From NCBI RefSeq assembly GCF_028331445.1, contig NZ_JAQMHX010000005.1, positions 310,001-374,000 on the forward strand: a stretch of DNA of 64,000 nt, given 5' to 3'. The number at the start of each line of letters is the position of its first letter. Position 1 is the first letter of the stretch. The translations under genes were made by a program, and so were the position numbers. Under the pieces are notes generated by a model, which was not told the DNA's origin, did not search any database, and was given only the letters and a program-made list of their open reading frames with translations. Shown here piece by piece: positions 4,609 to 22,058 of the stretch. Origin of the DNA: Candidatus Phyllobacterium onerii. GTDB lineage: Bacteria; Pseudomonadota; Alphaproteobacteria; Rhizobiales; Rhizobiaceae.

Positions 4609-6266
4609 TGGCCAAACGTCCCGTAGACAGAAGTGGAACCCTGCTCGATATCCGCAATCTGCGTATCGAGGCGACGAGCTACCCTCCCGGAGAACCGCCG
4701 CGCAATGTCGTCATTGTCGACGATGTTTCGGTGAAGGTCGAGCGCGGCAAAGTGCTGGGGCTCATTGGCGAGTCCGGTGCAGGCAAGTCGACCATCGGCC
4801 TTTCCAGCATGTGCTATGGCCGCGGCGGCGTGCGGATCACCGGCGGCGAAGTTTTGCTTAACGGACGCGACATATTGAAAGGTGGGCCAAGATTGCTACG
4901 GCAGGTCCGCGGACGTGAAGTCTGCTACGTCGCGCAATCTGCTGCCGCTGCCTTCAATCCTGCGCGCAAGCTGATGGATCAGGTGGTCGAGGCAGCGCTT
5001 CTGCACGGCATTTGCTCGAAGGCCGTAGCCGAGAAACGTGCGATCGGGCTGTTCAAGAAGCTTGGCCTGCCCAATCCGGAGACGTTTGGTCAGCGTTTTC
5101 CGCATCAGGTGTCAGGCGGACAGCTGCAGCGGGCCATGACCGCTATGGCGCTATGCTCGGAGCCGGATCTGATCGTGTTTGACGAGCCGACAACCGCGCT
5201 CGATGTGACCACGCAGATCGATGTGCTGGCTTCGATCAAGGATGCGATCCGCGATACGAATGTAGCGGCCCTTTACATCACCCATGATCTCGCCGTCGTG
5301 GCGCAGGTGGCGGATGACATCATCGTCTTGCGGCACGGCAAGAAAGTCGAATACGGCGATACGCACCAGATCATCAAGGAACCACGCCAGCAATACACCA
5401 ACCAGCTGGTCTCGGTACACCATATCCCGCACGAGCAAAACAACCCGACCGACGCGCCGATCCTGGTCGTCAACAATGTCACGGCGGCCTATGGCGGCGG
5501 GCTGGTGAAGGTCCTGAAGAACGTCTCCGTGGATATCCATCTTGGCCAGACCCTGGCTGTCGTTGGTGAATCCGGTTCGGGTAAATCCACGCTGGCCCGC
5601 GCGATAACCGGGCTGTTGCCGCCGATGGAGGGAAGCATAACCTTTGATGGACGGACCCTGTCACCCCGGCTGGCGAACCGTACGCGCAACGATCTGCGCG
5701 AGTTGCAGATGATCTATCAAATGGCGGATACCGCCATGAACCCGCGCCAGACCATCGGCACGATTATCGGCCGGCCGCTCGAGTTCTATTTCAAGATGAG
5801 GGGCAGGGAGCGCGACAGGCATGTCACGGAGCTCCTCGAAAAGATCGAGATGGGCAAGGGCTTTGCCGATCGGTACCCAGCCGAGCTCTCCGGCGGTCAA
5901 AAACAGCGCGTGTGCATCGCGCGGGCGCTGGCGGCAAAGCCGAAGCTCATCATCTGCGACGAGGTCACCAGCGCGCTGGATCCGCTGGTTGCGGACGGCA
6001 TATTGAAACTGCTGCTCGATCTGCAGAAGGATGAGAACGTCGCCTATCTCTTCATCACGCATGATCTTGCAACGGTGAAATCCATCGCCGATTCCATCGC
6101 GGTGATGTATCGCGGCGAGGTGGTTCGCTACGGACCGAAGTCGGAAGTCCTGGCGCCGCCTTTCGACGACTATACTGATCTGTTGTTGTCGTCAGTTCCG
6201 GAGATGGAGCTAGGATGGCTCGAAAACGCGATGAAACATCGCCGTATGGCCAGCGCCGGGAACTAG
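4608..6266 (+). CDS. ABC transporter ATP-binding protein, two fused nucleotide-binding domains (DppD-DppF type)
   Basis: This 552-residue cytoplasmic protein joins both ATPase domains of a peptide-type importer in one chain. Domain 1 has Walker A GESGAGKS (residues 54-61), signature VSGGQ and Walker B LIVFDEPT. Domain 2 has a second Walker A GESGSGKS, signature LSGGQ and Walker B LIICDEVT, where the usual proline after DE is valine. After each domain lies an oligopeptide-transporter carboxy-terminal extension. The gene overlaps the upstream permease by one base and its last four bases overlap the convergent esterase gene. Confidence 0.92.
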   Translation: MAKRPVDRSGTLLDIRNLRIEATSYPPGEPPRNVVIVDDVSVKVERGKVLGLIGESGAGKSTIGLSSMCYGRGGVRITGGEVLLNGRDILKGGPRLLRQVRGREVCYVAQSAAAAFNPARKLMDQVVEAALLHGICSKAVAEKRAIGLFKKLGLPNPETFGQRFPHQVSGGQLQRAMTAMALCSEPDLIVFDEPTTALDVTTQIDVLASIKDAIRDTNVAALYITHDLAVVAQVADDIIVLRHGKKVEYGDTHQIIKEPRQQYTNQLVSVHHIPHEQNNPTDAPILVVNNVTAAYGGGLVKVLKNVSVDIHLGQTLAVVGESGSGKSTLARAITGLLPPMEGSITFDGRTLSPRLANRTRNDLRELQMIYQMADTAMNPRQTIGTIIGRPLEFYFKMRGRERDRHVTELLEKIEMGKGFADRYPAELSGGQKQRVCIARALAAKPKLIICDEVTSALDPLVADGILKLLLDLQKDENVAYLFITHDLATVKSIADSIAVMYRGEVVRYGPKSEVLAPPFDDYTDLLLSSVPEMELGWLENAMKHRRMASAGN

Positions 6267-7213
6267 AGCTGGCCGGGCCAGCGGCCCTGGCCAAGCAGGT
6301 GCACGGCGGTGACGATACGCCGGAAGCTGGAGCGGGCGCGCTCCACACTGTGGCGCGCGCGCAGATAGGCGTGCACCAGACCGGGTTCGTTGTTCCAGAT
6401 CGCCTTGCCGCCGGCTGCAATGATCTTGTCGCGATAATGCCGGCCATCGTCCGATAGCGGATCGCATTCGGCTGAAATCACGACGGTGGCCGGCAGATCG
6501 GTAAAATCCGGATCATTCAACGGCGCGAAGCGCGGGTCGGTCGACCAGTTGAAGCCGCCGCCTCTGAGATTGAAATAATATAGCGTGTCGCGCGTCGTCA
6601 GCATCGGCGCTTCCGCATGGGTCACATAAGAGCCTTGATCGGTCGCCCCTCCCAGCCCGGGATAGATGAGAACCTGGCCAATGGGCGCGCGTTCGTGGCG
6701 GCGCACATGGTGCACGACCGCCGCCGCCAGATTCCCGCCGGCACTATCGCCGCACAGGACTATCGGCAAATCTGAAGTCGAAGCGACGTGCTCGAAGGCG
6801 GCAAGGCAATCCCTGAACGCGGATGGATGCAGGTGTTCGGGAACAAGCCTGTAATCGACCGCGATCACGCGGAAGTCTGTCCCGTCGCACAATTCGGCGC
6901 AGACATCGTCGTGGCTTTCAAGACCGCCAACGACGAAGCCGCCGCCATGAAAATAGAGGCAGATGGCTTTCGGATCGCAGTCGCGTTTTTCGTAGACGCG
7001 AAGTGGGATCTTGTGATTGCCGCTATCGATGAACTGGTCGGTCGCCGACATCATTTCGGGATAGCCGGCAAAAAATGCCCGGCACATGGTGTCGTAAACC
7101 TCCCGCTGCTGGGCAATCGAAAGCTCGATGGCATCGGGTGGGTAGAAACTGTTGGTACGTTCGATGAACGCCCAGGTTTCCTCGTCGATCAATATAGAAT
7201 AGTCGGTGGTCAT
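6263..7213 (-). CDS. alpha/beta hydrolase, hormone-sensitive-lipase type esterase
   Basis: The 316-residue product has the HSL (type IV) esterase signature HGGG at residues 89-92 (oxyanion hole) and the nucleophile elbow GDSAGG at 155-160, with Ser157 as the likely nucleophile. No signal peptide is apparent, so it should act in the cytoplasm on short acyl esters. It is the last gene of a six-gene minus-strand operon and overlaps the upstream hydratase gene by four bases (ATGA). That coupling to carnitine dehydrogenase and BKACE genes suggests a role in releasing carnitine or a related betaine from an acyl ester; this is inference, as type IV esterases vary widely in substrate. Confidence 0.88.
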   Translation of the reverse strand: MTTDYSILIDEETWAFIERTNSFYPPDAIELSIAQQREVYDTMCRAFFAGYPEMMSATDQFIDSGNHKIPLRVYEKRDCDPKAICLYFHGGGFVVGGLESHDDVCAELCDGTDFRVIAVDYRLVPEHLHPSAFRDCLAAFEHVASTSDLPIVLCGDSAGGNLAAAVVHHVRRHERAPIGQVLIYPGLGGATDQGSYVTHAEAPMLTTRDTLYYFNLRGGGFNWSTDPRFAPLNDPDFTDLPATVVISAECDPLSDDGRHYRDKIIAAGGKAIWNNEPGLVHAYLRARHSVERARSSFRRIVTAVHLLGQGRWPGQL

Positions 7214-7992
7214 TTCCCCTTCCAGACGGGCTCACGCTTTTCCGCGAAGGCTTTGAAACCCTCCTGGCCATCTTCGGATGCGTAGAGCGTGTCGACTGTA
7301 CGGAATTTGCGCTTGGTAATCCAGTTCATGGCTTCCTGAAAACCCATGCTCTCGGCTTCGCGCGCCACTTCCTTGATGGCGGCGAATACCAGCGGTGGCC
7401 CGCTTTCGAGCATGCGGGCGATTTCCCAAACCCGCTCCATCAGCTTGTCTTTCGGCAAGACCTCATTGACCAGCCCCCAACGGTGCGCCTCGATAACGTC
7501 CATCCAGCGACCTGTTAGCAGTAAATCCATGGCGACGTGATAAGGGATACGCTTCGGCAGCTTGACGGTTGCGGCATCGGCGAGGGTGCCCGCGCGGATT
7601 TCCGGCAGGGCAAAGCTGGAATGGTCGGAGGCATAGATCAGATCGCAGGAGAGGGCGAGTTCGAACCCGCCGCCGACTGCCATGCCATTGACAGCCGCGA
7701 TGACAGGCTTGTTGAGGTCGATCAGTTCTTGCAGACCTCCAAACCCGCCGACGCCATAATCACCATCGACCGCATCGCCGCCAGCTGCAGCCTTCAGGTC
7801 CCAACCGGCGCAGAAGAACTTGTCGCCCTCGGTCTGCACGATGGCGACACGCAGTTCGGGATCGTCACGGAATTTCTTGAACGTTTCGCCCATCAGACGG
7901 CTCGTCGTCAGATCAATCGCATTGGCTTTTGGCCGGTCCAGCGTGACTTCGAGAATGCCGCCTTCGCGGCGTGTCCTGACTACATCGTTCAT
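7210..7992 (-). CDS. caiD: enoyl-CoA hydratase/isomerase family protein, carnitinyl-CoA dehydratase-like
   Basis: From the ATG at 7992 this is a 260-residue crotonase-fold protein, close to the 261 residues of E. coli CaiD, which interconverts crotonobetainyl-CoA and L-carnitinyl-CoA. Crotonase features are visible: the oxyanion-hole loop CAGWDLKAAAGG, the segment MAVGGGFELALSCDLIYAS and the acidic LPEIRAGTLAD region. The frame extends 14 codons upstream, but the start at 7992 gives an ATGA overlap with the synthetase gene, the usual layout in this operon. The CaiD assignment rests on neighbours and general resemblance; another short-chain enoyl-CoA substrate is possible. Confidence 0.82.
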   Translation of the reverse strand: MNDVVRTRREGGILEVTLDRPKANAIDLTTSRLMGETFKKFRDDPELRVAIVQTEGDKFFCAGWDLKAAAGGDAVDGDYGVGGFGGLQELIDLNKPVIAAVNGMAVGGGFELALSCDLIYASDHSSFALPEIRAGTLADAATVKLPKRIPYHVAMDLLLTGRWMDVIEAHRWGLVNEVLPKDKLMERVWEIARMLESGPPLVFAAIKEVAREAESMGFQEAMNWITKRKFRTVDTLYASEDGQEGFKAFAEKREPVWKGK

Positions 7993-10067
7993 TTCAGCTC
8001 TCCCTTTGTCACCAACAGCGCATCGGCGATCCACGCACCGTCGCCCTGCCTGCAGACCAGCAGCGGATTGATATCAAGTTCGATAATTCGGCCAGAATTG
8101 TTCACGGCGAATGCGGCAATGCCCATGATTGCATCGATTGCCGCCCCAAGATCAGCCTTGGGCTTGCCCCTATAGCCATCCAGCAACGGGAACATGCGCA
8201 GCGAGCGCAGTGCCGTCTCGATATCCTCGCGGATCGAGGGCAAGAGCAAGGTTGCCGTATCCTGCAGCAATTCCACCAGAACGCCGCCGGTGCCGAGTGT
8301 CATCACTGGGCCGAATTGCGGGTCATCGATGATGCCTACGATAAGCTCGGCGACAGCGCCCGTGACCATCCGCTCGACATACAGGCCGGACCCAAGACCA
8401 GCAAGATCATCGGCGGCGGACCTGACCGCATCGGCATCTTTCAGATTGAGCCGAACGGCGTTCTGTTCGGACTTGTGGGCGATGCCGAGCGCCTTGAGGG
8501 CGACCGGATATCCGAGTGCGTCGGCAATGGCGACAGCCTCGCGAGTCGTGGTGCAACGCTGTCCCTCTGGCACCGGAAGCCCCGCACTCTTGAGAACGGC
8601 CTTGGCTTCGGCTTCGTCCGGGGTGCGTGTGCGGCCTTCCGCTTGGTCCTCTAGAACCGCCACGGCTTCCGCAAGCGGCATCTTCCACGCCTTGCCGATA
8701 AAGGCTGCAGCTTCCGCCGCATCGAAAGCTTCCGTTATGCCGCAGAGCGGCGCAATTCCCTTAGCCATCAGGCCGGACATGTATTCCTCCGGAATGTTTT
8801 CTGATAGCGAAGCGACAATGGCGCCTTTGGCCTTGTTGATTCGCAGCGCGTTTTCGAAGCCTCGAACGGTCGACCACCAATCCACGTCCGAACAACGATC
8901 CTTGCGCGGAAAATCGAGGACGAGGCAGCTTAGGGAAAAGCCGCCGGAAACCATGGCGGTGAATGTCTCTGTCAGTGCCGGCTCATTGTTCCAGATGAAC
9001 GTATGATAATCGAGCGGATTGGCGACGGCGACGAATGCTCCGAGCGTGGACTTGACCCGCGCCCGGTGCTCGGGCGTCAGTTCCGGAAAGTTGACCGCTC
9101 GTCCCTCGGCGCTATCGGCCATGACCGAAGCCTCGCCGCCGGAGCAGCTCATCGAGCTCAGAGTAATGCCGTCGAGCGGGCCGTGCACATGCAGAAGCTT
9201 CAATGTTTCAAGGAAGGATGCAATCGAGTTGACGCGGGCTATGCCTAGCCGCTTGAGAAACGCATCCGATGCTGCGTCCGAGCCCGCCAGCGAGGCGGTG
9301 TGCGAGACGGTCGCCGCCCGCGCCTGCGCCGAACGCCCGACTTTCATCGCGACTATAGGCTTGCCGAGTTCGCGGGCGCGCTTGGCAAGGAGTTCGAATT
9401 TTGGCGCCGACTGGAACGCCTCGATATGGAGGCCAAGCGCGGTAACGCGTTCATCTTCGAGAAGCGCAATTGCCATATCCGGGAGACCGGTCTGCGCTTG
9501 ATTGCCCGCCGTCATCACGTGGGCGATGGGCAGGCCGCGTGTTTGCATCGTCATGTTGATGGCGATGTTGGACGATTGCGTGATGATGGCGACGCCGCGC
9601 TCATCCGGGCCAAGCCGCCGCCCGCCATGCTGGTCGGGCCAGAGCAGTGCGCCATCGCAGTAGTTGATCAGCCCGTAGCAGTTGGGCCCAATGATCGGCA
9701 TGTCGCCCGCCGCTTCGACGAGTTCTTCCTGCAACCTTGCGCCATCGGCATCGTCGGCGCCTGCTTCGAGAAAGCCTGAGGCATAGCAGACAGCGACGCC
9801 CGCGCCGGCTTCACGCAGGTCGCGCACGATATCAAGCGTGAGAAAGCGATTGACGCCGACAAAGGCCGCATCGGGACTGCCCGGCAGATCGGCGACGGAA
9901 CGGTAGACCTTGAGGCCGCATATTTCGTCATGTTTGGGATGCACCGGCCAAATCTCGCCGGAGAAGCCCATTTTCTGGGATTGCTTGATGACTTCGGCGG
10001 CTTGCAGACCGCCGAAGACAGCAATGGTTTTCGGTCGTAGCAGACGATCGAGCTTATGCGGTGCCAT
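7989..10067 (-). CDS. acetate--CoA ligase family protein, ADP-forming acyl-CoA synthetase
   Basis: The 692-residue product has the single-chain layout of ADP-forming acyl-CoA synthetases: an amino-terminal CoA-binding Rossmann domain (PKTIAVFGG at 13-21), succinyl-CoA-ligase-like domains in the middle, and a carboxy-terminal ATP-grasp domain from about residue 470 with a TLGTGGVLVELL motif. It would form an acyl-CoA thioester from a carboxylate, ATP and CoA. Placed between a hydratase and an acyl-CoA dehydrogenase, it is the obvious activating enzyme for gamma-butyrobetaine, crotonobetaine or carnitine (inference). Enteric bacteria use the unrelated AMP-forming CaiC for this step. Confidence 0.88.
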   Translation of the reverse strand: MAPHKLDRLLRPKTIAVFGGLQAAEVIKQSQKMGFSGEIWPVHPKHDEICGLKVYRSVADLPGSPDAAFVGVNRFLTLDIVRDLREAGAGVAVCYASGFLEAGADDADGARLQEELVEAAGDMPIIGPNCYGLINYCDGALLWPDQHGGRRLGPDERGVAIITQSSNIAINMTMQTRGLPIAHVMTAGNQAQTGLPDMAIALLEDERVTALGLHIEAFQSAPKFELLAKRARELGKPIVAMKVGRSAQARAATVSHTASLAGSDAASDAFLKRLGIARVNSIASFLETLKLLHVHGPLDGITLSSMSCSGGEASVMADSAEGRAVNFPELTPEHRARVKSTLGAFVAVANPLDYHTFIWNNEPALTETFTAMVSGGFSLSCLVLDFPRKDRCSDVDWWSTVRGFENALRINKAKGAIVASLSENIPEEYMSGLMAKGIAPLCGITEAFDAAEAAAFIGKAWKMPLAEAVAVLEDQAEGRTRTPDEAEAKAVLKSAGLPVPEGQRCTTTREAVAIADALGYPVALKALGIAHKSEQNAVRLNLKDADAVRSAADDLAGLGSGLYVERMVTGAVAELIVGIIDDPQFGPVMTLGTGGVLVELLQDTATLLLPSIREDIETALRSLRMFPLLDGYRGKPKADLGAAIDAIMGIAAFAVNNSGRIIELDINPLLVCRQGDGAWIADALLVTKGELK

Positions 10068-10078
10068 TGAATGCTCCG

Positions 10079-11242
10079 TTACGCGCCATGGGGGCGGAGC
10101 AGGGCACGCGAGATGATGTGCCGCTGGATTTCGGATGTTCCTTCCCAGATGCGCTCGACGCGTGCATCACGCCAGATGCGCTCGAGCGGCAGGTCATCCA
10201 TCAAGCCCATGCCGCCATGGATCTGGATAGCCTCGTCGGCGACAAAGGCAAGCATTTCGGTGGCCTTGAGCTTGGCCATCGCCATGTCCTGATCCGTGAC
10301 TGTGCCCTGGTCGAATTTCCAGCCAGCTTCGAAGGTGAGCAGGTCTGCAGCTTTCAATTCCGTCGCCATATCGGCGAGCTTGAACGATACGCCCTGGAAC
10401 TTGCCGATCTGCTGGCCGAACTGCTGGCGCTGTGCTGCATATTCGATGGCGTGGCCAAGCGCCCGTTCGGCGCGGCCGAGACAGGTTGCTGCCACTTGCA
10501 GGCGGGTCGCGCCGAGCCAGGTATTGGCGACCTCGAAGCCCTTGTGGACTTCGCCGAGGATCTGTTCCTGCGGCAGGCGGCAATCGTCGAATTCGATGAT
10601 GGCATTGGTATAGCCGCGGTGCGAAACGTTCCGATAGCCTTCGCGGATGGTCATGCCGGGATGACCCTTGTCGACGAAGAAGGCTGTGATTTTCTTTTTC
10701 TTGCCGCGCGGCGTGTCTTCTTCGCCGGATGCAACGAAGAGAATGACGAAATCCGCTTCGACGGCGTGGCTGATGAAGTGCTTGGTGCCGTTGACGACCC
10801 AGTCCCCGCCTTTCTCGACAGCGGTCGCCTTCATGCCGCGCAGGTCGGAACCGGCGCCCGGCTCGGTCATCGCGAGGCAATCCGACTTTTCACCGCGGAT
10901 GCAGGGGAACAGGTACTTTTCCTTCTGCGCGTCGGTGCCGGCAAGCAGGATGTTGGAAGGACGTCCGACGCAGGTCCAGTGCAGCGCATAATTGGCGCGG
11001 CCAAGTTCCTTTTCGTAGAGCAGCCACGTCACGGTATCGAGACCGGCACCACCGACCTCCTCCGGCATGTTGGCGGCATAAAGTCCGGCTTCGATTGCTT
11101 TTTGCTTCAGTTCGTCGGCCAGTTCCTTGCGGAGGACGCCGGTACGCTCGACCTCTGCTTCGTGCGGATAGAGTTCGTTTTCGACAAAGGCGCGTGTCGT
11201 ATCGACGATCAGCCTTTGCTCCTCCGAAAGACCGAAATCCAT
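10079..11242 (-). CDS. acyl-CoA dehydrogenase
   Basis: A 387-residue FAD-dependent acyl-CoA dehydrogenase. It shows the family landmarks MTEPGAGSDL (FAD/substrate contact), IHGGMGLMDDLPLERIWRD and the carboxy-terminal RIWEGTSEIQR, whose glutamate is the usual catalytic base. The ATG at 11242 matches the conserved family beginning MDFGLSEEQ; the upstream 41 codons of open frame overlap the dehydrogenase gene and do not look like protein. In this operon the likely reaction is gamma-butyrobetainyl-CoA to crotonobetainyl-CoA (inference). Electrons would pass to ETF, which is not encoded in the window. Confidence 0.9.
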   Translation of the reverse strand: MDFGLSEEQRLIVDTTRAFVENELYPHEAEVERTGVLRKELADELKQKAIEAGLYAANMPEEVGGAGLDTVTWLLYEKELGRANYALHWTCVGRPSNILLAGTDAQKEKYLFPCIRGEKSDCLAMTEPGAGSDLRGMKATAVEKGGDWVVNGTKHFISHAVEADFVILFVASGEEDTPRGKKKKITAFFVDKGHPGMTIREGYRNVSHRGYTNAIIEFDDCRLPQEQILGEVHKGFEVANTWLGATRLQVAATCLGRAERALGHAIEYAAQRQQFGQQIGKFQGVSFKLADMATELKAADLLTFEAGWKFDQGTVTDQDMAMAKLKATEMLAFVADEAIQIHGGMGLMDDLPLERIWRDARVERIWEGTSEIQRHIISRALLRPHGA

Positions 11243-11246
11243 GGCG

Positions 11247-12311
11247 TTACCCCTTCTTTTTCTTGGGCTTGCTGGCGACCGCCTTGGTGGCTGCCTTGGA
11301 AACGGCAGGCTTCTGCGCGAGCTTCGACAGACGCTTGGTGTAGTCGTTGTGAAGTGCGCCTGCACCCCAGCCCTTGCCCTTGTTCTGCTTGGAAAGCGCT
11401 TCCATTATGGCCACGAGGTTATCGTCGCGGATGCGCTCGAGCTCGCGGATCGACAGGCCATGCGCCTGTTCATCCGACTGATTGGCGATCTTGTCGACCA
11501 GTTCCTCGTCAAGTTCCGGCACGTCCATCAGCTTGGTCCACGGCCAAGACAGGCATGGACCGAATTGCGCGATGAAGTGGCGCATGCCGGCTTCACCACC
11601 AGCAACGCGGTAGACCTGGAACATGCCCATCTGTGCCCAGCGAATGCCGAACGAATAGCGGATGATGTCGTCGAGTTCTTCGACCGTCGTGATGTCGTCC
11701 TTGATGAGCCACAGGGATTCGCGCCAGACGGCTTCGAGCAGGCGGTCGCCGACGAAGGCTTCGATTTCCTTGCGGATGACGACCGGCTTCATGCCGATCG
11801 AGGTGTAGAGTTCGCGTGCCTTTTCGACAGCCTCCGGCGAGGTCTGCTTGCCGCCGACGATCTCGACCAGGGGGAGGAGATAGACGGGATTGTAAGGGTG
11901 ACCGACGACCAGCCGTTCAGGATGCTTCATCGCCGTCTGCATGTCCGACGGCAGGATGCCCGAAGTCGAAGAACCAACGATGGCATCGACCGCCGCATGT
12001 TTATCGATTTCTGCGAGCACCTTGTGCTTCAGGTCGAGCCGTTCCGGCACGCTTTCCTGAATGAAGTCGGCACCGGCAACGGCCTGTTCGATCGACTTGG
12101 CAAATGTCAGCTTGCCTTCCTTTGGCAAGCCGCCCGGCACCATGGTCTTGTAGGCGCGGCGTGAATTCTTCATCACTTCGCTGACCTTGCGCTCGGCCTC
12201 CGGATCCGGATCGAAGATCGACACGTCGATACCATTAAGAAGGAGACGCGCTACCCAGCCCGCACCGATAACTCCGCCGCCGATTGCCGCGGCCTTGCGA
12301 ATACCTGCCAT
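11247..12311 (-). CDS. lcdH: L-carnitine dehydrogenase (3-hydroxyacyl-CoA dehydrogenase family)
   Basis: The 354-residue protein begins with an NAD-binding Rossmann motif GGGVIGAGW (residues 11-19), followed by 3-hydroxyacyl-CoA dehydrogenase landmarks SSTSGILPSDMQ, VGHPYNPVYLLPLVE and the carboxy-terminal helical domain. Resemblance is to L-carnitine 3-dehydrogenase, which oxidises L-carnitine to 3-dehydrocarnitine with NAD+. The last 40 or so residues are rich in Lys, Ala and Thr and end KPKKKKG. In some rhizobial enzymes I recall a thioesterase domain fused at the end; here a thioesterase is a separate gene at 14368. Spacing is six bases to the BKACE gene upstream and four to the acyl-CoA dehydrogenase downstream. 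Confidence 0.9.
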   Translation of the reverse strand: MAGIRKAAAIGGGVIGAGWVARLLLNGIDVSIFDPDPEAERKVSEVMKNSRRAYKTMVPGGLPKEGKLTFAKSIEQAVAGADFIQESVPERLDLKHKVLAEIDKHAAVDAIVGSSTSGILPSDMQTAMKHPERLVVGHPYNPVYLLPLVEIVGGKQTSPEAVEKARELYTSIGMKPVVIRKEIEAFVGDRLLEAVWRESLWLIKDDITTVEELDDIIRYSFGIRWAQMGMFQVYRVAGGEAGMRHFIAQFGPCLSWPWTKLMDVPELDEELVDKIANQSDEQAHGLSIRELERIRDDNLVAIMEALSKQNKGKGWGAGALHNDYTKRLSKLAQKPAVSKAATKAVASKPKKKKG

Positions 12312-14283: not shown

Positions 14284-14367
14284 GCGTCGCTTTTGACAAA
14301 GCAGCGTTACGGACTTCGTGTTTCAAACCGCGATCGAATAGTTGCGCCATCCAATCAGGAGCCCAGA

Positions 14368-14859
14368 ATGTCAGCCGAGAATTTGCCAGGTCAACTGTAC
14401 CGGTCCGTGCCGATTGCCATGGAGAAGGAGTGGATCGACTATAATGGTCACCTGAACATGGCGTATTACAACGTGGTTTTCGACCGGGGCGGCGACGAGT
14501 TTCTTGCCGAATTGGGCTTCGGCCCGAAATATGCCGCCGAACGCAAGCTGACGATCTACACCGCCGAAGTGCATATCTGCTACGTGCAGGAAATTCATCT
14601 CGATCATATCGTGACGGTTACCAGCCAGTTGATCGATTTCGATGCCAAGCGTCTGCACACGTATAATGAGATCGTGCACAAGGATGGCTGGGTGGCGGCG
14701 ACCGCCGAGGTGATGTCACTGCATGTGGATATGAACGGCCCAAAGGTCGTGCCGTTTCCCGACGATATTTTGGCGACGCTAGAGCGCTACAAGGAGGCTC
14801 ATTCCCAGCTGCCAATACCTGCGCGGGTTGGCCGCTCGATCGGGATCAAGCGGAAGTAG
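14368..14859 (+). CDS. hotdog-fold thioesterase family protein, probable betainyl-CoA thioesterase
   Basis: From the ATG at 14368 the product has 163 residues, with a CAGGAG ribosome site eight bases upstream; a start 25 codons earlier lacks such a site. The sequence has the hotdog-fold feature WIDYNGHLNMAYY near the start, as in 4-hydroxybenzoyl-CoA-type thioesterases. Next to carnitine dehydrogenase and BKACE genes the expected substrate is betainyl-CoA, giving glycine betaine and CoA (inference from the known carnitine pathway). Its last 14 bases overlap the convergent LysR gene. Confidence 0.85.
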   Translation: MSAENLPGQLYRSVPIAMEKEWIDYNGHLNMAYYNVVFDRGGDEFLAELGFGPKYAAERKLTIYTAEVHICYVQEIHLDHIVTVTSQLIDFDAKRLHTYNEIVHKDGWVAATAEVMSLHVDMNGPKVVPFPDDILATLERYKEAHSQLPIPARVGRSIGIKRK

Positions 14860-15754
14860 TCCCGCCAAACTGTTCAACCAGCCAGCGCTCGAATTGGCGG
14901 ATACGGGTTTCGCCGACGCGCTCCTTGCGGCAGATCATGTACCAGGCGCCGGGCTGCGGAACTTTCAGCGGGAACGGGGCGACAAGCCGCCCAGCCTGGA
15001 TGTCGTCAGCCACCAGAAAGTCCGGTGCCACGGCGAGGCCCTGACCATCCAAAGCGGACTGCAGGGCGGCAAGATAGGTGTCGAACTTCAACGTTACGGC
15101 TTGCGCGGTATCGGCGATGCCTGCCGCCTCCAGCCATGTGCCCCAATCCTCGGGGGAGGTATAAAGCGCGAGGCGTGGCACCTTGGCCAGAGCTTGAGCT
15201 CCAACGTCGCCTTCGATGCGCGCGGCCACTTGCGGACTGCACACGGGTCGCATTTCCGCCTTGACCAACAGGCGGTAGTGCAGGTTCATCCGCTCCGGCC
15301 GGGTGGTATGGATGATGCCGATGTCGGAACTATCGATGTTGAGTTCCCAATCGAGCTGGCTCGTGCCGATGCGGATGGCGAGATTGGGATTGACCTTGCG
15401 GAAGTCCGTCAGGCGCGGGATCAGCCAGCGGATGGCGAAGGTCGCATAGGTCTCGAGCGCCAAATCGTCGGTCGTGCCGATCCGATTGATCAGCGCCGTA
15501 CCGCGCGCAATTCGTTCGAAGGCATCACGCATATAGGGATAGTAGAGCGTGCCGGCGTCAGTCAGCGACACGCCGCGTGGCAGGCGTTCGAACAGCTTGA
15601 CGCCGAGGATGGTTTCAAGTTCGGCGATACGGTGGCTGATGGCGGATTGGGTCACGCCAAGTTCCTCTCCAGCAAGCCGGAAGCTCAACAGCCGCGCTGA
15701 CGCTTCAAACGCCCGCAACGAGCCGAGCGGCGGTATTCTGGGTTTGGACATCAT
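14846..15754 (-). CDS. LysR family transcriptional regulator, GcvA-like
   Basis: A 302-residue LysR regulator: winged helix-turn-helix at residues about 10-65 (FRLAGEELGVTQSAISHRI), linker helix, then a periplasmic-binding-like effector domain. The opening PPLGSLRAFEASARLLSF is typical of the GcvA-like branch. It is divergent from the Rieske/dehydrogenase operon and is the natural candidate regulator of those genes, perhaps responding to glycine betaine or glycine (inference). Two tandem ATG codons (15754, 15751) are possible starts. Confidence 0.88.
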   Translation of the reverse strand: MMSKPRIPPLGSLRAFEASARLLSFRLAGEELGVTQSAISHRIAELETILGVKLFERLPRGVSLTDAGTLYYPYMRDAFERIARGTALINRIGTTDDLALETYATFAIRWLIPRLTDFRKVNPNLAIRIGTSQLDWELNIDSSDIGIIHTTRPERMNLHYRLLVKAEMRPVCSPQVAARIEGDVGAQALAKVPRLALYTSPEDWGTWLEAAGIADTAQAVTLKFDTYLAALQSALDGQGLAVAPDFLVADDIQAGRLVAPFPLKVPQPGAWYMICRKERVGETRIRQFERWLVEQFGGTTSA

Positions 15755-15805: not shown

Positions 15806-15905
15806 GTAACGATCGCTTGAATGCGGCGCAATGCGGAATCATTCTAAACTGCGGCGCCTCTTCAAAAACAACCGGCGTCCGGGAACAATCCTTTCGGAGA
15901 ATGAG

Positions 15906-17138
15906 ATGGGTGCAGAACAAGCCTTAGCGGAAATTGCGCCGTCTCTGGACAAGATCGATCAACTGATCGCCGGGCACAAAGCCGGTCACGGGCTTGTTCG
16001 TGCGTTCTATATGGGTCCTGACGTCTATGCGCGTGATATGGAACGGGTGTTCCGGCGTCATTGGCATTGTATTGGTCACGCCAGCATCATTCCCAATGCC
16101 GGAGATTTCGAGCTTTTCAAGATCGACAGCGAGGCGGTGATTGTTTCACGCACCGAAGACGGCGCGATCCATGCCTTTTTGAACGTTTGCCGCCATCGCG
16201 GTGCCGAGGTCTGCACCAAGCAAAAGGGCAATGCGCGCTTCTTCGTCTGTCCCTATCATGCCTGGACATACACCAATGATGGCAGTCTGCGCGCCGCGCG
16301 GCTAATGCCGAAGGATTTCGATCGGAGCGCCCATGGCTTGAAGAAGCTGCATGTGAGGGTGGCCGAGGGACTGATCTTCATCTGTTTTGCCGACGAACCA
16401 CTGGATTTTTCCATTATCGAACAGTCGCTGCGTACAACTTGCGGGCAGTACGGCTGGGCGGATGCCAAGGTTGCGCACCGCGAGACCTATCCCGTTGATG
16501 CCAACTGGAAGCTTGCGGTCGAAAATTACGTGGAATGTTATCACTGTGGACCGGCCCACCCTGAGTACTCGCAAACGCATGCACTGGAGCAGCCAGCCGA
16601 GAAGATCGTTGAGCTGAATGCGCGCATGGAACAGCGCACCTGTGCGCTTGGCATCGACATTGCGACTGGCGATCACTGGCAGAGTTCGGCGCACGGCCAG
16701 GAAACGATTCATACGTTCCGCTATGCGCTCTACGACGGCGTTTCCAGCGGCAGCGAAGATGGTTCGCCTGTCGGGCCACTGATGGGGCGCTTCTCGGAGT
16801 TCGACGGCGGCGTTACCTCGATCCATCTTGGCGGCACGAGCTTCCTTGTGTGCTATCCGGACCACGGCATGATCTATCGGTTCATTCCGAAAAGCGTCGA
16901 CACGTGTGAGATGGAACTGATCTGGCTGGTGCGCGGCGATGCTGAAGAAGGCAAGGACTACGACCTCAAAAAGCTGACCTGGCTGTGGAAGGTCACGACC
17001 GCCGAGGACAAAACGATCATCGAGCATACGGCGCGCGGCGTCCGTTCGCACTATTTCGTGCCGGGACCGATTGCGCCGATGGAATATAATGAACTGCGGT
17101 ACATCCAGTGGTACCTCGATGAAATCGCACGGCCATAA
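15906..17138 (+). CDS. Rieske non-heme iron oxygenase alpha subunit, GbcA-like
   Basis: Read from the ATG at 15906 (ribosome site CGGAGAATGAG), the protein has 410 residues. The Rieske [2Fe-2S] ligands are Cys95, His97, Cys115 and His118, and the mononuclear iron site is ENYVECYHCGPAHPEYS with His213 and His218 and the bridging Glu210. Proteins of this type N-demethylate quaternary amines: GbcA (glycine betaine), CntA (carnitine), Stc2 (proline betaine). The dimethylglycine-dehydrogenase paralogues downstream favour glycine betaine to dimethylglycine plus formaldehyde. No reductase (GbcB-like) is encoded nearby. Confidence 0.85.
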   Translation: MGAEQALAEIAPSLDKIDQLIAGHKAGHGLVRAFYMGPDVYARDMERVFRRHWHCIGHASIIPNAGDFELFKIDSEAVIVSRTEDGAIHAFLNVCRHRGAEVCTKQKGNARFFVCPYHAWTYTNDGSLRAARLMPKDFDRSAHGLKKLHVRVAEGLIFICFADEPLDFSIIEQSLRTTCGQYGWADAKVAHRETYPVDANWKLAVENYVECYHCGPAHPEYSQTHALEQPAEKIVELNARMEQRTCALGIDIATGDHWQSSAHGQETIHTFRYALYDGVSSGSEDGSPVGPLMGRFSEFDGGVTSIHLGGTSFLVCYPDHGMIYRFIPKSVDTCEMELIWLVRGDAEEGKDYDLKKLTWLWKVTTAEDKTIIEHTARGVRSHYFVPGPIAPMEYNELRYIQWYLDEIARP

Positions 17139-17169
17139 TTGAAAAGCATGAGACTACAGGGGACTGCTT

Positions 17170-19617
17170 ATGTCTGATTTTCCAACGTCGGCGCGCGTCG
17201 TCATCATCGGTGGCGGGGCGGTCGGCGTTTCGTCGCTTTATCACCTCGCCAAAGCGGGGTGGACCGATTGCGTGCTGCTTGAAAAGAATGAGCTGACATC
17301 GGGATCGACATGGCATGCGGCGGGCAATGTGCCGACGTTTTCGGCCTCGTGGTCGGTGATGAACATGCAGCGCTATTCGGCGGAGCTCTATCGCGGGCTG
17401 GCCGCCGAAGTCGACTATCCCATGAACTACCATGTCACCGGATCGCTGCGGCTGGCGCATACCAAGGAGCGGATGCGGGAATTCCAGCGGGTGAAGAGCA
17501 TGGGCCGCTATCAGGGCATGGATATCGATGTGCTGGGGGTCGATGAGATCAACGGGCGCTATCCGTTTATTGCGACGCATGAGCTCGAAGGCGCGCTCTA
17601 CGATCCCAACGACGGCGATATCGATCCGGCGCAGTTGACGCAAGCTCTTGCCAAGGGCGCTCGCGATCTCGGCGCCAAGATCATCCGCTTTTGCCCTGTA
17701 ACAGGTGCCAGGCGCGACAACGATGAGTGGGTCATCTCGACGCCTCAGGGCGAGATTCGCTGCGAATACGTGGTCAATGCTGCAGGATATCGCGCGCAGG
17801 AAATCGGCAAGATGTTCGGCCGCGACGTGCCGATGATGGTTATGAGCCATCAATACCTGCTGTTCGACGAAATCCCGGAGATTGCCGCCTGGTCGCGTGA
17901 ACATGGCCAGAAATTGCCACTGCTGCGCGACGTGGATTCGTCCTATTATCTGCGGCAAGAAAAGAACGGCATGAATCTCGGCCCCTATGAGCGCAATTGC
18001 CGGGCGCATTGGGCGACTTCCGACGATCCGATGCCCGACGACTTCTCGTTCCAGCTTTTCCCCGACGATCTGGAGCGGCTCGAATGGTATCTGACCGATG
18101 CTATTGCACGCGTTCCGATCCTTGGCACGGCGGGCCTGTCGAAGATCATCAACGGTCCGATCCCTTACGCGCCGGATGGCAACCCGCTGATTGGCCCGAT
18201 GCCGGGCGTTCCCAACGCTTTCGAGGCCTGTGTCTTTACATTCGGTATTGCGCAGGCCGGCGGAGCGGGCAAGGTCCTCGCCGAATGGGTGACGGAGGGC
18301 GCGACGGAGTGGGATATGTGGTCGTGCGATCCGCGCCGGTTCACCGCGTTCACCGATCCTGACTATTGCGTTGCCAAGGGTGTTGAAGTCTACGGTCACG
18401 AATACGCCATCCACTTCCCGCGCCACACATGGCCGGCGGGACGCAACAAGAAGCTTTCACCGATCCATGACCGCATCGCCAAGCTCGGTGCGCAGTTCGG
18501 GGCTTATAATGGCTGGGAACGTGCCAACTGGTATGCGCAACCGGGCGACGATACGTCCGAAGACTCCACACAGACATTCCTGCGCGACGGTCCGTGGCAG
18601 CAGCGTATTCGCGAAGAATGCCATGCGGTGCGCGATGCTGTCGGCGTTCTAGACTTGCCGGGTTTCTCACGCTTCAAAGTAAGCGGTGAGGGCGCGCGCG
18701 CATGGCTGGCGACGTTGATAACAGGCATCGTGCCGAAACCCGGACGTATCGGCCTTGGCTACTTTTCCGATGACAAGGGCCGCGTGGTCACTGAGATGTC
18801 GATTATGGCAATCGACGAGGACGTGTTCTTTCTGATCACCGCCGGTGTTGCCGAATGGCATGATCGTGACTGGCTGCTCAACCATTTGCCGAAAGGCAGT
18901 GCAATCAGCATCAGTAATGTGACGGAAGACTTCTCCTGCCAGATCGTGACCGGGCCGAAGGCGCGCGATCTGTTCCGCGATATCTGCGATGCCGATCTCG
19001 AAAAATCCTGGCTGTCGCATCAGACGACGCAGATTGCCGGGCGCTATTGCCAATTGGTACGGGTATCGTTTGCCGGTGAGCTCGGCTGGGAAGTCCACAC
19101 CAAGGTGGCCGATACTGCCGCAATCTACGACGCGGTGTGGGAGGCGGGTCAGAAATACGGGATCAAGCCCTTTGGCATGTTCGCACTGGATTCGCTGCGT
19201 CTGGAAAAGGGTTACCGCGCGTGGAAGGGCGACCTGTCAACGGATTACACACCGCTGCAAAGCGGGCTCGAACGCTTCATCAAGTGGGAAAAGCCGGAAT
19301 TCATTGGCAAGGCTGCACTCGAAAGCGAAAAGCAGCAGGGCGTGAAGAAGCGCTTCGTGACGCTGACTGTTGACGCCGGCGATTGCGACGCGCCTTACAT
19401 GTCGACGCTCTGGCACGATGGCAATATCGTTGGAGAGACGACATCGGGCGGTTGGGGCCACCGCATCGACAAGTCCATCGCGCTCGGCATGCTGAAGACG
19501 GAACTCACTGAACCTGGCACCGAAGTCGAGGTGGAAATCTTCGGTGAGCGCTTCAGGGCGATAGTTCATCCTGACCAACCGCTATGGGATCCAAAGAACG
19601 AAAGAATTCGGGCATGA
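17170..19617 (+). CDS. FAD-dependent oxidoreductase with GcvT domain, dimethylglycine/sarcosine dehydrogenase family (copy 1)
   Basis: An 815-residue protein: DAO-type FAD domain with dinucleotide motif GGGAVG (14-19), His49 in STWHAAG (the position that binds FAD covalently in dimethylglycine dehydrogenase), then an FAO_M linker and a carboxy-terminal aminomethyltransferase-like (GcvT and GcvT_C) half from about residue 425. Such enzymes oxidise an N-methyl group and transfer the carbon to tetrahydrofolate. The segment after the FAD histidine differs from copy 2 (NVPTFSASWSVMNMQRYS), suggesting a different substrate. It starts 31 bases after the Rieske gene and overlaps copy 2 by ATGA. Confidence 0.88.
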   Translation: MSDFPTSARVVIIGGGAVGVSSLYHLAKAGWTDCVLLEKNELTSGSTWHAAGNVPTFSASWSVMNMQRYSAELYRGLAAEVDYPMNYHVTGSLRLAHTKERMREFQRVKSMGRYQGMDIDVLGVDEINGRYPFIATHELEGALYDPNDGDIDPAQLTQALAKGARDLGAKIIRFCPVTGARRDNDEWVISTPQGEIRCEYVVNAAGYRAQEIGKMFGRDVPMMVMSHQYLLFDEIPEIAAWSREHGQKLPLLRDVDSSYYLRQEKNGMNLGPYERNCRAHWATSDDPMPDDFSFQLFPDDLERLEWYLTDAIARVPILGTAGLSKIINGPIPYAPDGNPLIGPMPGVPNAFEACVFTFGIAQAGGAGKVLAEWVTEGATEWDMWSCDPRRFTAFTDPDYCVAKGVEVYGHEYAIHFPRHTWPAGRNKKLSPIHDRIAKLGAQFGAYNGWERANWYAQPGDDTSEDSTQTFLRDGPWQQRIREECHAVRDAVGVLDLPGFSRFKVSGEGARAWLATLITGIVPKPGRIGLGYFSDDKGRVVTEMSIMAIDEDVFFLITAGVAEWHDRDWLLNHLPKGSAISISNVTEDFSCQIVTGPKARDLFRDICDADLEKSWLSHQTTQIAGRYCQLVRVSFAGELGWEVHTKVADTAAIYDAVWEAGQKYGIKPFGMFALDSLRLEKGYRAWKGDLSTDYTPLQSGLERFIKWEKPEFIGKAALESEKQQGVKKRFVTLTVDAGDCDAPYMSTLWHDGNIVGETTSGGWGHRIDKSIALGMLKTELTEPGTEVEVEIFGERFRAIVHPDQPLWDPKNERIRA

Positions 19618-22058
19618 GTTCACTTCCCACGAAGGCCCGCGCCGTCATCATCGGTGGCGGCATTTCCGGCTGTTCCGTCGCCTATCATCTGGCCAAGCTC
19701 GGCTGGAGCGATATCGTTTTGCTCGAGCGCAAACAGCTGACCTCCGGCACGACATGGCATGCGGCGGGACTGATCGGCCAGTTGCGCGCCTCGCAGAACA
19801 TGACGCGGCTCGCCAAGTATTCGGCGGACCTTTACGTCAAGCTCGAGGCAGAAACCGAGGTCGCCACCGGCATGCGTCAGGTTGGCTCGATCACCGTCGC
19901 GCTGACCGAGGAACGCAAGCACGAGATATACCGGCAGGCGTCGTTGGCGCGAGCATTCGATGTCGATGTGCGCGAGATTTCTCCGCGCGAAGTCAAGGAG
20001 ATGTATCCGCATCTTAACATCGAGGATGTGGTTGGTGCGGTGCATTTGCCGCTCGATGGGCAGTGCGATCCGGCCAATATCGCCATGGCTCTTGCCAAGG
20101 GTGCGCGGCAGCGCGGCGCGAAGATCGTCGAGAACGTCAAGGTCACCGAAGTTCTCAAGAAAAATGGCCGTGTAACCGGCGTGACCTGGGCGCAAGGCGG
20201 AGATCACGGCACGATAGAGACCGATGTCGTGATCAACTGCGCGGGAATGTGGGCGCGCGATCTGGCGGGAACGTCGGGTGTGACCGTGCCACTGCATGCT
20301 TGCGAGCACTTCTATCTCGTCACCGAAGCCATCGAGGGGCTCGGGCGTCTGCCGGTGCTGCGCGTTCCCGATGAATGCGCCTACTACAAGGAGGATGCCG
20401 GCAAGATGATGCTCGGTGCTTTCGAACCGGTGGCCAAGCCATGGGGAATGAACGGTATTTCCGAGGATTTCTGTTTCGACCAGTTGCAGGAAGACTTCGA
20501 GCATTTCGAGCCGATCCTTGAAATGGGCGTCAACCGCATGCCGATGCTCGGTACTGCCGGTATCCATACATTCTTCAATGGTCCCGAAAGCTTCACCCCT
20601 GACGACCGGTACTATCTCGGCGAAGCGCCGGAGCTTGGCGGCTACTGGGTTGCAGCGGGGTATAATTCCATCGGCATCGTTTCCTCTGGCGGCGCCGGGA
20701 TGGCGCTTGCGCAATGGATAAACGACGGCGAAGCCCCATTCGACCTGTGGGAGGTGGATATTCGACGGGCGCAGCCCTTCCAGAAGAACCGGCGCTACCT
20801 GAAGGAGCGCGTCTCGGAGACGCTCGGCCTGCTCTATGCCGATCATTTCCCGTACCGGCAAATGGCAACATCGCGCAATATCAGGCGCTCGCCCATTCAC
20901 GAGCATCTGAAAGCGCGGGGAGCGGTGTTTGGCGAAGTTGCGGGATGGGAGCGCGCCAACTGGTTTGCCAAAGAGGGTCAGGAGCGCGAATACCGTTATT
21001 CGTGGAAGCGGCAGAACTGGTTTGAGAACCAGCGCGACGAACACCTCGCGGTTCGCAACAATGTCGGTCTGTTCGACATGACCTCATTTGGAAAAATCCG
21101 TATCGAGGGCCGTGATTCACTGGCATTCCTGCAGCGGCTTTGTGCCAATCAGCTCGATGTCGAGCCGGGCCGCATCGTCTATACTCAGATGCTCAACAAT
21201 CGCGGCGGGATCGAGAGCGACCTGACTATTACGCGGCTCTCGGACACGGCGTTTTTTGCCGTGGTGCCCGGCGCGACGCTGCAACGTGACCTTGCCTGGA
21301 TGCGCAAGCACCTCAAGGACGAGTTCGTGGTCGTCACAGACGTGACTGCGGCAGAGTCAGTGCTGTGTTTGATGGGCCCTAAATCGCGCGAGCTGATCCA
21401 GAAGGTCAGCCCGAGTGATTTCTCGAACGAAGGCAATCCGTTCGGAACGGCACGCGAGATCGAAATCGGTATGGGTTTGGCACGAGCACACCGCGTGACC
21501 TATGTCGGCGAGCTCGGCTGGGAACTTTATGTCTCGACGGATCAGACGGCACATGTTTTCGAGGCAATCGAAGAAGCCGGAAAGGACCTTGGCTTGAAAC
21601 TGTGCGGACTGCACACGCTGGACTCGTGCCGTATCGAAAAAGCCTTCCGGCATTTCGGCCACGATATCACCGACGAGGACCATGTGCTGGAAGCGGGGCT
21701 CGGCTTTGCCGTGAAGGCGGACAAGGGCGATTTCATCGGTCGCGAGGGGGTGCTGAAGAAGAAGGACACAGGGCTTGATCGCCGTCTGGTGCAATTCCGC
21801 CTGAACGACCCCGAGCCGCTGCTGTTTCACAATGAGGCAATCGTCCGTGACGGCAAGATTGTGGGGACGATCACATCCGGCAATTACGGGCATTATCTCG
21901 GCGGCGCGATCGGACTCGGCTATGTCCCGAGCAGGGGCGAAAGCGCCGAACAGGTACTGGCTTCCGATTATGAGATCGAGATAGCCGGTGTGCGGGTGAA
22001 GGCCGAGGCCTCGCTGCGGCCGATGTACGATCCCAAGGCCGAGCGGGTGAGGGTGTAG
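19614..22058 (+). CDS. FAD-dependent oxidoreductase with GcvT domain, dimethylglycine/sarcosine dehydrogenase family (copy 2)
   Basis: An 814-residue paralogue of the preceding protein with the same layout: GGGISG FAD motif, His49 in TTWHAAG, FAO_M linker and GcvT/GcvT_C domains. Its LIGQLRASQNMTRLAKYS segment matches the classical dimethylglycine/sarcosine dehydrogenase pattern better than copy 1. The ATG at 19614 overlaps the stop of copy 1 as ATGA; a start ten codons upstream is possible but less likely. The pair could perform the two successive demethylations from dimethylglycine to glycine (inference). Confidence 0.88.
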   Translation: MSSLPTKARAVIIGGGISGCSVAYHLAKLGWSDIVLLERKQLTSGTTWHAAGLIGQLRASQNMTRLAKYSADLYVKLEAETEVATGMRQVGSITVALTEERKHEIYRQASLARAFDVDVREISPREVKEMYPHLNIEDVVGAVHLPLDGQCDPANIAMALAKGARQRGAKIVENVKVTEVLKKNGRVTGVTWAQGGDHGTIETDVVINCAGMWARDLAGTSGVTVPLHACEHFYLVTEAIEGLGRLPVLRVPDECAYYKEDAGKMMLGAFEPVAKPWGMNGISEDFCFDQLQEDFEHFEPILEMGVNRMPMLGTAGIHTFFNGPESFTPDDRYYLGEAPELGGYWVAAGYNSIGIVSSGGAGMALAQWINDGEAPFDLWEVDIRRAQPFQKNRRYLKERVSETLGLLYADHFPYRQMATSRNIRRSPIHEHLKARGAVFGEVAGWERANWFAKEGQEREYRYSWKRQNWFENQRDEHLAVRNNVGLFDMTSFGKIRIEGRDSLAFLQRLCANQLDVEPGRIVYTQMLNNRGGIESDLTITRLSDTAFFAVVPGATLQRDLAWMRKHLKDEFVVVTDVTAAESVLCLMGPKSRELIQKVSPSDFSNEGNPFGTAREIEIGMGLARAHRVTYVGELGWELYVSTDQTAHVFEAIEEAGKDLGLKLCGLHTLDSCRIEKAFRHFGHDITDEDHVLEAGLGFAVKADKGDFIGREGVLKKKDTGLDRRLVQFRLNDPEPLLFHNEAIVRDGKIVGTITSGNYGHYLGGAIGLGYVPSRGESAEQVLASDYEIEIAGVRVKAEASLRPMYDPKAERVRV

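Follow-up and report, generated by a model that had tools for sequence, protein, structure and literature searches.

The bacterial metabolism of carnitine and gamma-butyrobetaine has been described for several systems, and we compare these here with a gene cluster of Candidatus Phyllobacterium onerii that we read, at a probability of about 0.68, as a module for the breakdown of quaternary amines of the carnitine family, with an entry for gamma-butyrobetaine included. The cluster lies in a stretch of 64,000 nucleotides, the window, which corresponds to C5:310001-374000 of the 6.0 Mb genome of a plant-associated Phyllobacterium; positions refer to the whole window unless a contig or locus is named. 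The carnitine locus of Sinorhizobium meliloti agrees with the window in its core genes and in their order, with identities of 57–73% between the core enzymes, and comprises a GlxA regulator, a BKACE protein, an L-carnitine 3-dehydrogenase (CDH) fused to a thioesterase, an acyl-coenzyme A (acyl-CoA) dehydrogenase, a ligase, CaiD and an ABC transporter. It differs from the window in the CDH-thioesterase fusion and in that no Rieske or dimethylglycine dehydrogenase gene is annotated within 12 kb of the ligase, in a gene table that, like the other plasmid gene tables used for our comparisons, is incomplete by its own description. The caiTABCDE operon of Escherichia coli shares with the window a CaiD protein (52% identity) and the same proposed CoA intermediates, but it employs a CoA transferase, CaiB, together with the ligase CaiC, whereas the window has a ligase of the ADP-forming type and a dehydrogenase 33% identical to CaiA. 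CaiC of E. coli is of the AMP-forming type.

In S. meliloti, the fusion protein SM2011_c01638 is described as acting on carnitine to give 3-dehydrocarnitine and on betainyl-CoA to give glycine betaine, in a passage that cites Bazire et al. 2019 (excerpt of PMC12482172). E. coli, for its part, makes gamma-butyrobetaine, with carnitine serving as electron acceptor (excerpt of PMC5806209). The caiX-cdhCAB-hocS genes of Pseudomonas aeruginosa resemble the window in leading from carnitine to glycine betaine, in including an acylcarnitine hydrolase and in having a divergent gene, cdhR, for a GATR-type AraC regulator; as described in the same excerpt the operon is without the ligase-dehydrogenase-hydratase trio, and its likeness to the window is one of layout. 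In SAR11, an enzyme for gamma-butyrobetaine forms a cluster with CDH and BKACE, but this upstream enzyme is the dioxygenase BBOX, another feed into the same route, where the window would use a CoA route (excerpt of PMC12421898).

In the window, six tightly packed genes run on the minus strand from 13223 to 6263 and likely form a single operon: BKACE (12318–13223), CDH (11247–12311), acyl-CoA dehydrogenase (10079–11242), ADP-forming acyl-CoA ligase (7989–10067), a CaiD-like hydratase (7210–7992) and an esterase (6263–7213). The first four are separated by gaps of 6, 4 and 11 bases, while 4-base overlaps join the stop of the ligase gene to the start of the CaiD gene and the stop of the latter to the start of the esterase gene (ATGA in the CaiD/esterase case). 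Beyond a gap of 76 bases from BKACE follow, on the plus strand, a divergent GlxA-type regulator (13300–14283), a thioesterase (14293–14859), a Rieske oxygenase (15831–17138) and two proteins with DAO and GCV_T domains (17170–19617 and 19584–22058, the second possibly starting at 19617), with a LysR regulator (14846–15754) between thioesterase and Rieske gene on the opposite strand. Family scans of 6263–22058 gave open frames with strong family matches for all enzymes, and thus bear out every enzyme and both regulators listed in a preliminary description of this DNA, which had left out the role of the esterase and the ABC transporter.

Conservation was followed in 80 named loci (the best 80 of 451 relatives, nearly all from Phyllobacterium and Mesorhizobium), in a wide set of 20 loci from other alphaproteobacteria, three of which (L118, L123 and L128) are ended early by contig ends, and in a sample of 289 alphaproteobacterial genomes that includes the window's own. 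BKACE, CDH, acyl-CoA dehydrogenase, ligase and CaiD occur together in 78 of the 80 named loci (L068 and L076 are cut by contig ends), and because this five-gene core is kept so widely, the clustering is not by chance. The ligase of the window is 96–97% identical to those of three Phyllobacterium genomes.

Taking together the families, the operon, the conservation and the co-occurrence that we observe, a route of ten steps can be proposed, of which steps 7–9 come from known pathways and the others are predictions. The ABC transporter would import the substrate (step 1), and the esterase would free carnitine from short acylcarnitines (step 2). Gamma-butyrobetaine (or crotonobetaine) would be charged with CoA by the ADP-forming ligase (step 3), converted to crotonobetainyl-CoA by the acyl-CoA dehydrogenase (step 4) and to L-carnitinyl-CoA by the CaiD-like hydratase (step 5), after which L-carnitine would be freed, most simply via the reversed ligase, or via a thioesterase (step 6). 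CDH would then turn carnitine into 3-dehydrocarnitine (step 7), BKACE would use acetyl-CoA to form betainyl-CoA and acetoacetate (step 8), and the 4HBT thioesterase would release glycine betaine (step 9). Its demethylation towards glycine would probably fall to the Rieske oxygenase together with the pair of flavin-folate dehydrogenases (step 10).

The conversion of carnitine to glycine betaine by CDH, BKACE and thioesterase, steps 7–9, is in our view very probable. CDH scores 604.9 bits against NF005716/PRK07531, over the curated cut-off of 592, and covers only positions 2–343 of the 495 in that model; the C-terminal thioesterase domain is the separate 4HBT protein at 14293–14859, which aligns to the remaining positions 349–495 with 113 bits and is the predicted betainyl-CoA thioesterase. 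We consider this part of the route solid because CDH passes the cut-off and the thioesterase accounts for the remainder of that model. In S. meliloti and Rhizobium the two are fused, in contrast to the separate genes of the window; the window CDH shares 65% identity with the first, N-terminal part of the S. meliloti protein, and the window thioesterase 37% with its C-terminus. BKACE scores 321.2 bits against PF05853 (gathering threshold 24.8) and is 67% identical to its counterpart in S. meliloti and 69% to that in Paracoccus, and we infer its activity on 3-dehydrocarnitine from its operon partners. The matches of these three enzymes strongly support the sequence carnitine, dehydrocarnitine, betainyl-CoA, glycine betaine that had been put forward beforehand.

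Among the 80 named loci, the thioesterase was detected only in the 14 of Phyllobacterium type. An HD-domain protein is encoded by the carnitine genes in 59 of the 80, mostly from Mesorhizobium; no locus has both proteins and seven have neither (two of these being cut by contig ends). In L074 the HD-domain gene (L074:7103-7726) sits between BKACE and CDH, and the window genome holds no match to the protein at 1e-20. Its best solved match is PhnZ, a weak one, and a relative (49% identity) on a Pseudomonas plasmid adjoins a TauD-type dioxygenase and choline genes. A His and a His-Asp pair, which we take to be the motif of mixed-valent di-iron oxygenases, are invariant in 58 aligned rows, the last Asp in at least 90%. 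Glycine betaine might be the product of this HD-domain protein, formed by oxidation of carnitine or of a phosphonate analogue.

Upstream of carnitine, the acyl-CoA dehydrogenase, the ligase and CaiD form a trio that is complete in 19 of the 20 wide loci, L134 being without the dehydrogenase, and that is also present in Ruegeria, Paracoccus and Alloyangia and in Ruegeria pomeroyi DSS-3. CDH and BKACE adjoin the trio in seven wide loci (L119, L122, L126, L130, L131, L132 and L133). The other 13 do not have both beside it (L117 has BKACE only, and 12 have neither at comparable identity), which speaks against a role of the trio in carnitine metabolism. Across genomes, though, the two travel together. 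A ligase of at least 530 bits was found in 21 of the 289 genomes (own included), and a CDH of at least 300 bits in 19 of these 21 (18 of 20 without the own genome) versus 20 of the 268 others, with a one-sided Fisher p of 5e-17, a test that ignores kinship and uses score thresholds set after the scores had been seen. The two genome searches behind these counts scored up to 4 and 7 candidates per genome. With CDH taken at 265 bits or more, the counts are 20 of 21 versus 24 of 268; lowering the ligase threshold to 430 bits gives 25 of 30 versus 14 of 259; and a further choice of thresholds gives 27 of 30 genomes with CDH where the ligase is present versus 17 of 259 where it is not. The 21 ligase genomes fall into 13 families, 12 of which have a CDH of at least 300 bits. 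Two of the genomes count against the association, having a weak CDH match (G128, 270 bits with an internal stop; G133, 250 bits).

Because trio and CDH share genomes even when they lie apart, we favour a trio that feeds CDH, and consider it probable that it acts on gamma-butyrobetaine or crotonobetaine. The extension upstream by ligase, dehydrogenase and hydratase, as first suggested in the preliminary description, finds good support in operon structure, conservation and co-occurrence with CDH across genomes, gamma-butyrobetaine remaining its predicted substrate. For rhizobial gamma-butyrobetaine genes, we found no gene assignment in the literature searched, which did not cover the primary S. 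meliloti study. A proteomic study of carnitine in R. pomeroyi names CdhABC; the terms 'SPOA' and 'acyl-CoA' are absent from its main text, which is hence silent on the trio (main text of PMC12478193).

In R. pomeroyi DSS-3, whose trio consists of caiD (SPO_RS21265), the ligase (SPO_RS21275) and the dehydrogenase (SPO_RS21280), a gene for a DJ-1/PfpI protein lies between the ligase and caiD (L172:13396-14001), and in Ruegeria sp. AD91A (L140:1-9745) the trio and a GlxA gene adjoin a set of glycine cleavage, lipoyl synthase and glyA genes, an arrangement that perhaps links betaine breakdown to glycine use. A diverged sister cluster (L143:36-13002, L170:8016-16813 and L130:1-3680) contains a CaiD-like protein, a 3-hydroxyacyl dehydrogenase, a GlxA regulator and BKACE, to which Aminobacter adds an ABC transporter, an acyl-CoA dehydrogenase, an ADP-forming ligase (40% identity) and an acetoacetate--CoA ligase; its substrate is perhaps another betaine.

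For the hydratase of the trio, a candidate crotonobetainyl-CoA hydratase, the best NCBIfam model is indeed that of crotonobetainyl-CoA hydratase (NF002936), with 317 bits versus 215.5 for the next of 72 families matched. Fourteen alphaproteobacterial plasmid rows are 54.6–58.4% identical to E. coli CaiD, and the ligase gene touches the match in seven of them, with three more having it. In a tree, the window hydratase falls into a clade of 22 rows with support of 100/100, and the 25 CaiD proteins of trios divide into 20 in this clade, four in the group of E. coli CaiD (L119, L120, L126 and L133) and one (L135) among paralogues; three of the four that group with E. coli CaiD (L119, L126 and L133) have CDH and BKACE adjacent. 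Several points weigh against the assignment. The 317 bits lie under the equivalog cut-off of 500, paralogues in multi-copy genomes are 43–53% identical to the window hydratase, and E. coli CaiD is placed not in the window clade but in an adjacent group of eight rows with weak resolution (91/90, drawn open) that holds the four trio proteins and three paralogues. As functional proof, the 52% identity to E. coli CaiD is weakened by these paralogues and by the separation in the tree. It is the context that carries most weight for the reaction of the hydratase; sequence alone is no proof.

The acyl-CoA dehydrogenase, assigned by family match, is a predicted gamma-butyrobetainyl-CoA dehydrogenase and is 67% identical to its counterpart in S. 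meliloti. This assignment is opposed by its best solved matches, which are ordinary short-chain acyl-CoA dehydrogenases, by the low identity to E. coli CaiA (33%) and by a score of 197 bits against the CaiA model NF002885, where the cut-off is 540. Short-chain matches of this kind are what would be expected if the trio burned a short acyl group, such as butyrate, cut from acylcarnitines by the esterase, and were unrelated to gamma-butyrobetaine; the presence of the esterase in the same operon and the annotation of this group of ligases as 'acetate--CoA ligase family proteins' agree with such a use. However, the trio is kept in 19 of the 20 wide loci and the esterase was detected in none of them (tblastn, 1e-8), and the family scans found neither a thiolase nor a second 3-hydroxyacyl-CoA dehydrogenase in the window operon. 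With the best model of the hydratase being that of crotonobetainyl-CoA hydratase, and with conserved aromatic residues of the ligase that suit an onium group, we regard the burning of short acyl groups as unlikely and keep to gamma-butyrobetaine as the probable substrate of the trio.

The ligase (CoA_binding_2, Succ_CoA_lig and ATP-grasp_5) is the predicted gamma-butyrobetaine (crotonobetaine/carnitine)--CoA ligase. Among solved structures it is closest to DddX (PDB 7cm9; E 2e-64 over residues 12–675), which joins CoA to dimethylsulfoniopropionate (DMSP) and then eliminates dimethyl sulfide, with Glu432 as the proposed base (excerpt of PMC8163506). The two share the architecture of the ADP-forming ligase superfamily and the phosphohistidine, His256 in the window and His292 in DddX, which is kept in all of the 109 rows of our alignment (the window, 80 named loci, 20 wide loci and 8 plasmid rows, one of them the diverged Aminobacter copy). 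They differ in the proposed base and in other proposed substrate residues, whose DddX positions were counted by hand from a pairwise alignment of low identity. At the position of Glu432, 61 of the 81 close rows show D and the remaining 20 show V, whereas for the other 28 rows the printed letters are P, D, A, T, F, S and N, with no E; the window ligase also departs from DddX at the positions of Tyr181, Asp208 and Trp391. Although DddX is the nearest solved structure, a ligase that is a DMSP lyase of this type, in a trio serving DMSP breakdown, is therefore very improbable, and we rejected it on the loss of the catalytic base Glu432 in that low-identity pairwise alignment. Each of four aromatic residues (W143, Y354, W359 and W397) is retained in 95% or more of the ligase rows, and W397 aligns with F435 of DddX, a cation-pi residue; it tells against their significance that the choice of these four, out of 13 near-invariant positions with an aromatic residue or His, was guided by their nearness to DddX-aligned sites. 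The pattern fits a ligase that would act on an onium acid without elimination. In S. meliloti Ak57 (L136), the ligase matches in two pieces and is unannotated, possibly reflecting a frameshift or error, in a record titled pSymB that is 3.7 Mb long.

Since CDH acts on free carnitine, free carnitine must leave carnitinyl-CoA, and it counts against a continuous route that no linked enzyme for this release is apparent. Among ten flanking proteins (seven taken from loci with the trio alone, two from L117 and one from the own genome; the flanks were scanned in part), there was no shared thioesterase or CoA transferase near the trio, and in Ruegeria none is annotated directly beside it. Neither this gap nor the want of a reductase beside the Rieske gene was noted in the preliminary description. 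We infer that carnitine is freed by the ligase run backwards, the simplest case, an ADP-forming ligase being reversible in principle, or by a thioesterase, for instance the 4HBT protein. A more specific idea is that the ligase works at both ends, charging gamma-butyrobetaine with ATP and discharging L-carnitinyl-CoA with recovery of ATP; we put this forward tentatively and consider it rather unlikely. If it held, carnitinyl-CoA, ADP and phosphate would yield carnitine, CoA and ATP, and the route would be ATP-neutral up to carnitine; a single reversible enzyme would take over from both CaiC and CaiB, the CoA transferase, and some of the DddX-like ADP-forming ligases would act as betaine--CoA ligases that possess an aromatic cage (W143, Y354, W359 and W397). 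The best-scoring matches to CaiB and CaiC in the own genome have only 28% and 27% identity. As to a gamma-butyrobetaine hydroxylase, a search with PF06155 found only a frame of 168 amino acids and none of dioxygenase size. Both results speak for the proposed route.

The direction of the trio is not fixed by gene content alone, and it could in principle handle another betaine or D-carnitine, or run reductively from carnitine to gamma-butyrobetaine as in enteric bacteria. Re-use of the same kinds of enzymes is seen in the sister cluster of Aminobacter and Parasedimentitalea. The strong link to CDH across genomes and the oxidative route onwards to glycine betaine favour oxidation, however, and the genome has no good match to CaiB or CaiC, so that we find these other uses of the trio improbable beside the oxidation of gamma-butyrobetaine.

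At the far end of the route, both dehydrogenase-like proteins, assigned to the dimethylglycine/sarcosine type, have the full DAO, FAO_M, GCV_T and GCV_T_C architecture, and for the second, which alone was searched, dimethylglycine dehydrogenases lead the PDB matches (lowest E 2.6e-134). The LysR gene, the Rieske gene and the first dehydrogenase gene lie beside the operon in 13 of the 14 Phyllobacterium-type loci, and the second dehydrogenase was matched in nine, as the flanks retrieved stop at this point. In Neorhizobium sp. NCHU2750, the dehydrogenases (77% and 83% identity) and the Rieske protein (73%) are encoded at the caiD end of the carnitine operon, and in Rhizobium sp. CC-CFT758 a Rieske gene (74%) and one dehydrogenase gene (84%, to protein 2) lie near ligase and CDH, with an adjoining stretch without a listed gene. 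Because carnitine operon and Rieske module are joined repeatedly in different orders, a working link between them is suggested.

The substrate of the Rieske oxygenase is less clear. The enzyme is of the quaternary-ammonium kind, like GbcA of the GbcA/GbcB system, but its 283 bits against the GbcA model NF058607 are far under the equivalog cut-off of 670, two other proteins of its genome match GbcA better, and no GbcB-type reductase was seen among the neighbouring window genes scanned. All this weighs against a role in the demethylation of glycine betaine. The better matches, both also under the cut-off, are at C9:115516-116724 (517 bits) and C6:143837-145057 (395 bits), and the former is adjoined by a GbcB-like gene (384 bits, cut-off 500). 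These two better matches led us to drop a firm claim that the window enzyme is glycine betaine monooxygenase, and we see the odds that it acts on glycine betaine as even. A protein of the fatty acid desaturase family is encoded near the C9 pair (C9:109000-123000, L147).

Glycine betaine may instead be demethylated elsewhere in the genome, by the GbcA-GbcB-like pair on C9 or by MTTB-type enzymes on C3, with the window Rieske oxygenase taking a different N-methylated compound. Two methyltransferases of the MTTB superfamily (C3:109599-120681) flank a dimethylglycine-dehydrogenase-like match at C3:111192-113333, one of them ending about 85 bases before it, an arrangement that recalls the cobalamin-linked glycine betaine route reported in marine bacteria (excerpt of PMC12478193). 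The higher GbcA and GbcB scores and the C3 arrangement speak for demethylation elsewhere, as do two Shinella plasmids on which no annotated carnitine gene lies closer than 11 kb to the Rieske gene, an absence that also tells against the link to the carnitine operon. The position of the Rieske gene beside the operon in the Phyllobacterium-type loci, and in another order beside carnitine genes in Neorhizobium and Rhizobium sp. CC-CFT758, points the other way, and the C9 pair does not reach the GbcA and GbcB cut-offs either. We think demethylation elsewhere a serious contender, at slightly less than even odds. One continuous pathway to glycine is plausible, and the module beside the carnitine operon in two rhizobia is a gain for it; its glycine betaine step is the part that the C9 pair and the C3 methyltransferases call into question.

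Left of the operon, the plus strand encodes an ABC transporter (1215–6266), a candidate importer of carnitine, acylcarnitine or gamma-butyrobetaine. It consists of a substrate-binding protein of family 5, the oligopeptide type (1215–2804; 64% identical to the S. meliloti protein beside the carnitine operon and 43% to the Paracoccus one between BKACE and CDH), a first permease (2814–3773; 52% to a Paracoccus permease), a second (frame 3607–4608, matched part 3787–4605; 67% to an S. meliloti permease) and an ATPase with two nucleotide-binding domains (4608–6266; 70% to S. meliloti). The carnitine transporter cntTUVW of R. pomeroyi has been verified (excerpt of PMC10130141). The corresponding loci of S. 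meliloti, Rhizobium and Paracoccus also contain counterparts of transporter and esterase; for Rhizobium, the transporter was identified solely from its annotation. The esterase itself, an alpha/beta hydrolase of the HSL type (Abhydrolase_3) present in 78 of the 80 named loci, is a predicted O-acylcarnitine esterase with a HocS-like role, read so from its position because caiX-cdhCAB-hocS of P. aeruginosa includes a hydrolase for short-chain acylcarnitines. The C-terminal part of a CocE/NonD-family hydrolase (PepX_C; 1–1079, plus strand, starting upstream of the window), possibly an ester hydrolase of the module, is 45% identical over 652 amino acids to the CocE/NonD protein of S. meliloti, the match being at L085:7131-9077, a stretch that spans the window's left end.

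Of the two regulators, the LysR protein, presumably of the Rieske/dehydrogenase module, is encoded in 13 of the 80 named loci, exactly those that have the Rieske gene. The GlxA-type AraC protein has a CdhR-like position, divergent from the operon. It scores 215 bits against the GbdR model NF052371 (equivalog cut-off 480), and the window has no exact CdhR site, sought as GGTCGC half-sites with a spacer of about 15 bases (half-site from P. aeruginosa; excerpt of PMC5806209), two points that count against our reading. Of the curated models, that of CDH is passed at its cut-off, and the equivalog cut-offs for CaiD, CaiA, GbcA and GbdR are missed.

The pathway is mostly known, its S. meliloti form has been studied, and the ligase is its least ordinary part; its new or unsettled points are the role of the ADP-forming ligase as a betaine--CoA ligase, the release of carnitine and the substrate of the Rieske oxygenase. 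If our reading is true, a widespread group of generically named 'acetate--CoA ligase family proteins' of alphaproteobacteria (rhizobia, Ruegeria and Paracoccus) would be betaine--CoA ligases, to be set apart from DddX, the DMSP lyase named in papers on marine DMSP cycling. The cluster would also supply gene candidates for the route from gamma-butyrobetaine to carnitine, for which a Rhizobium-like strain is employed industrially (excerpt of PMC2131755).

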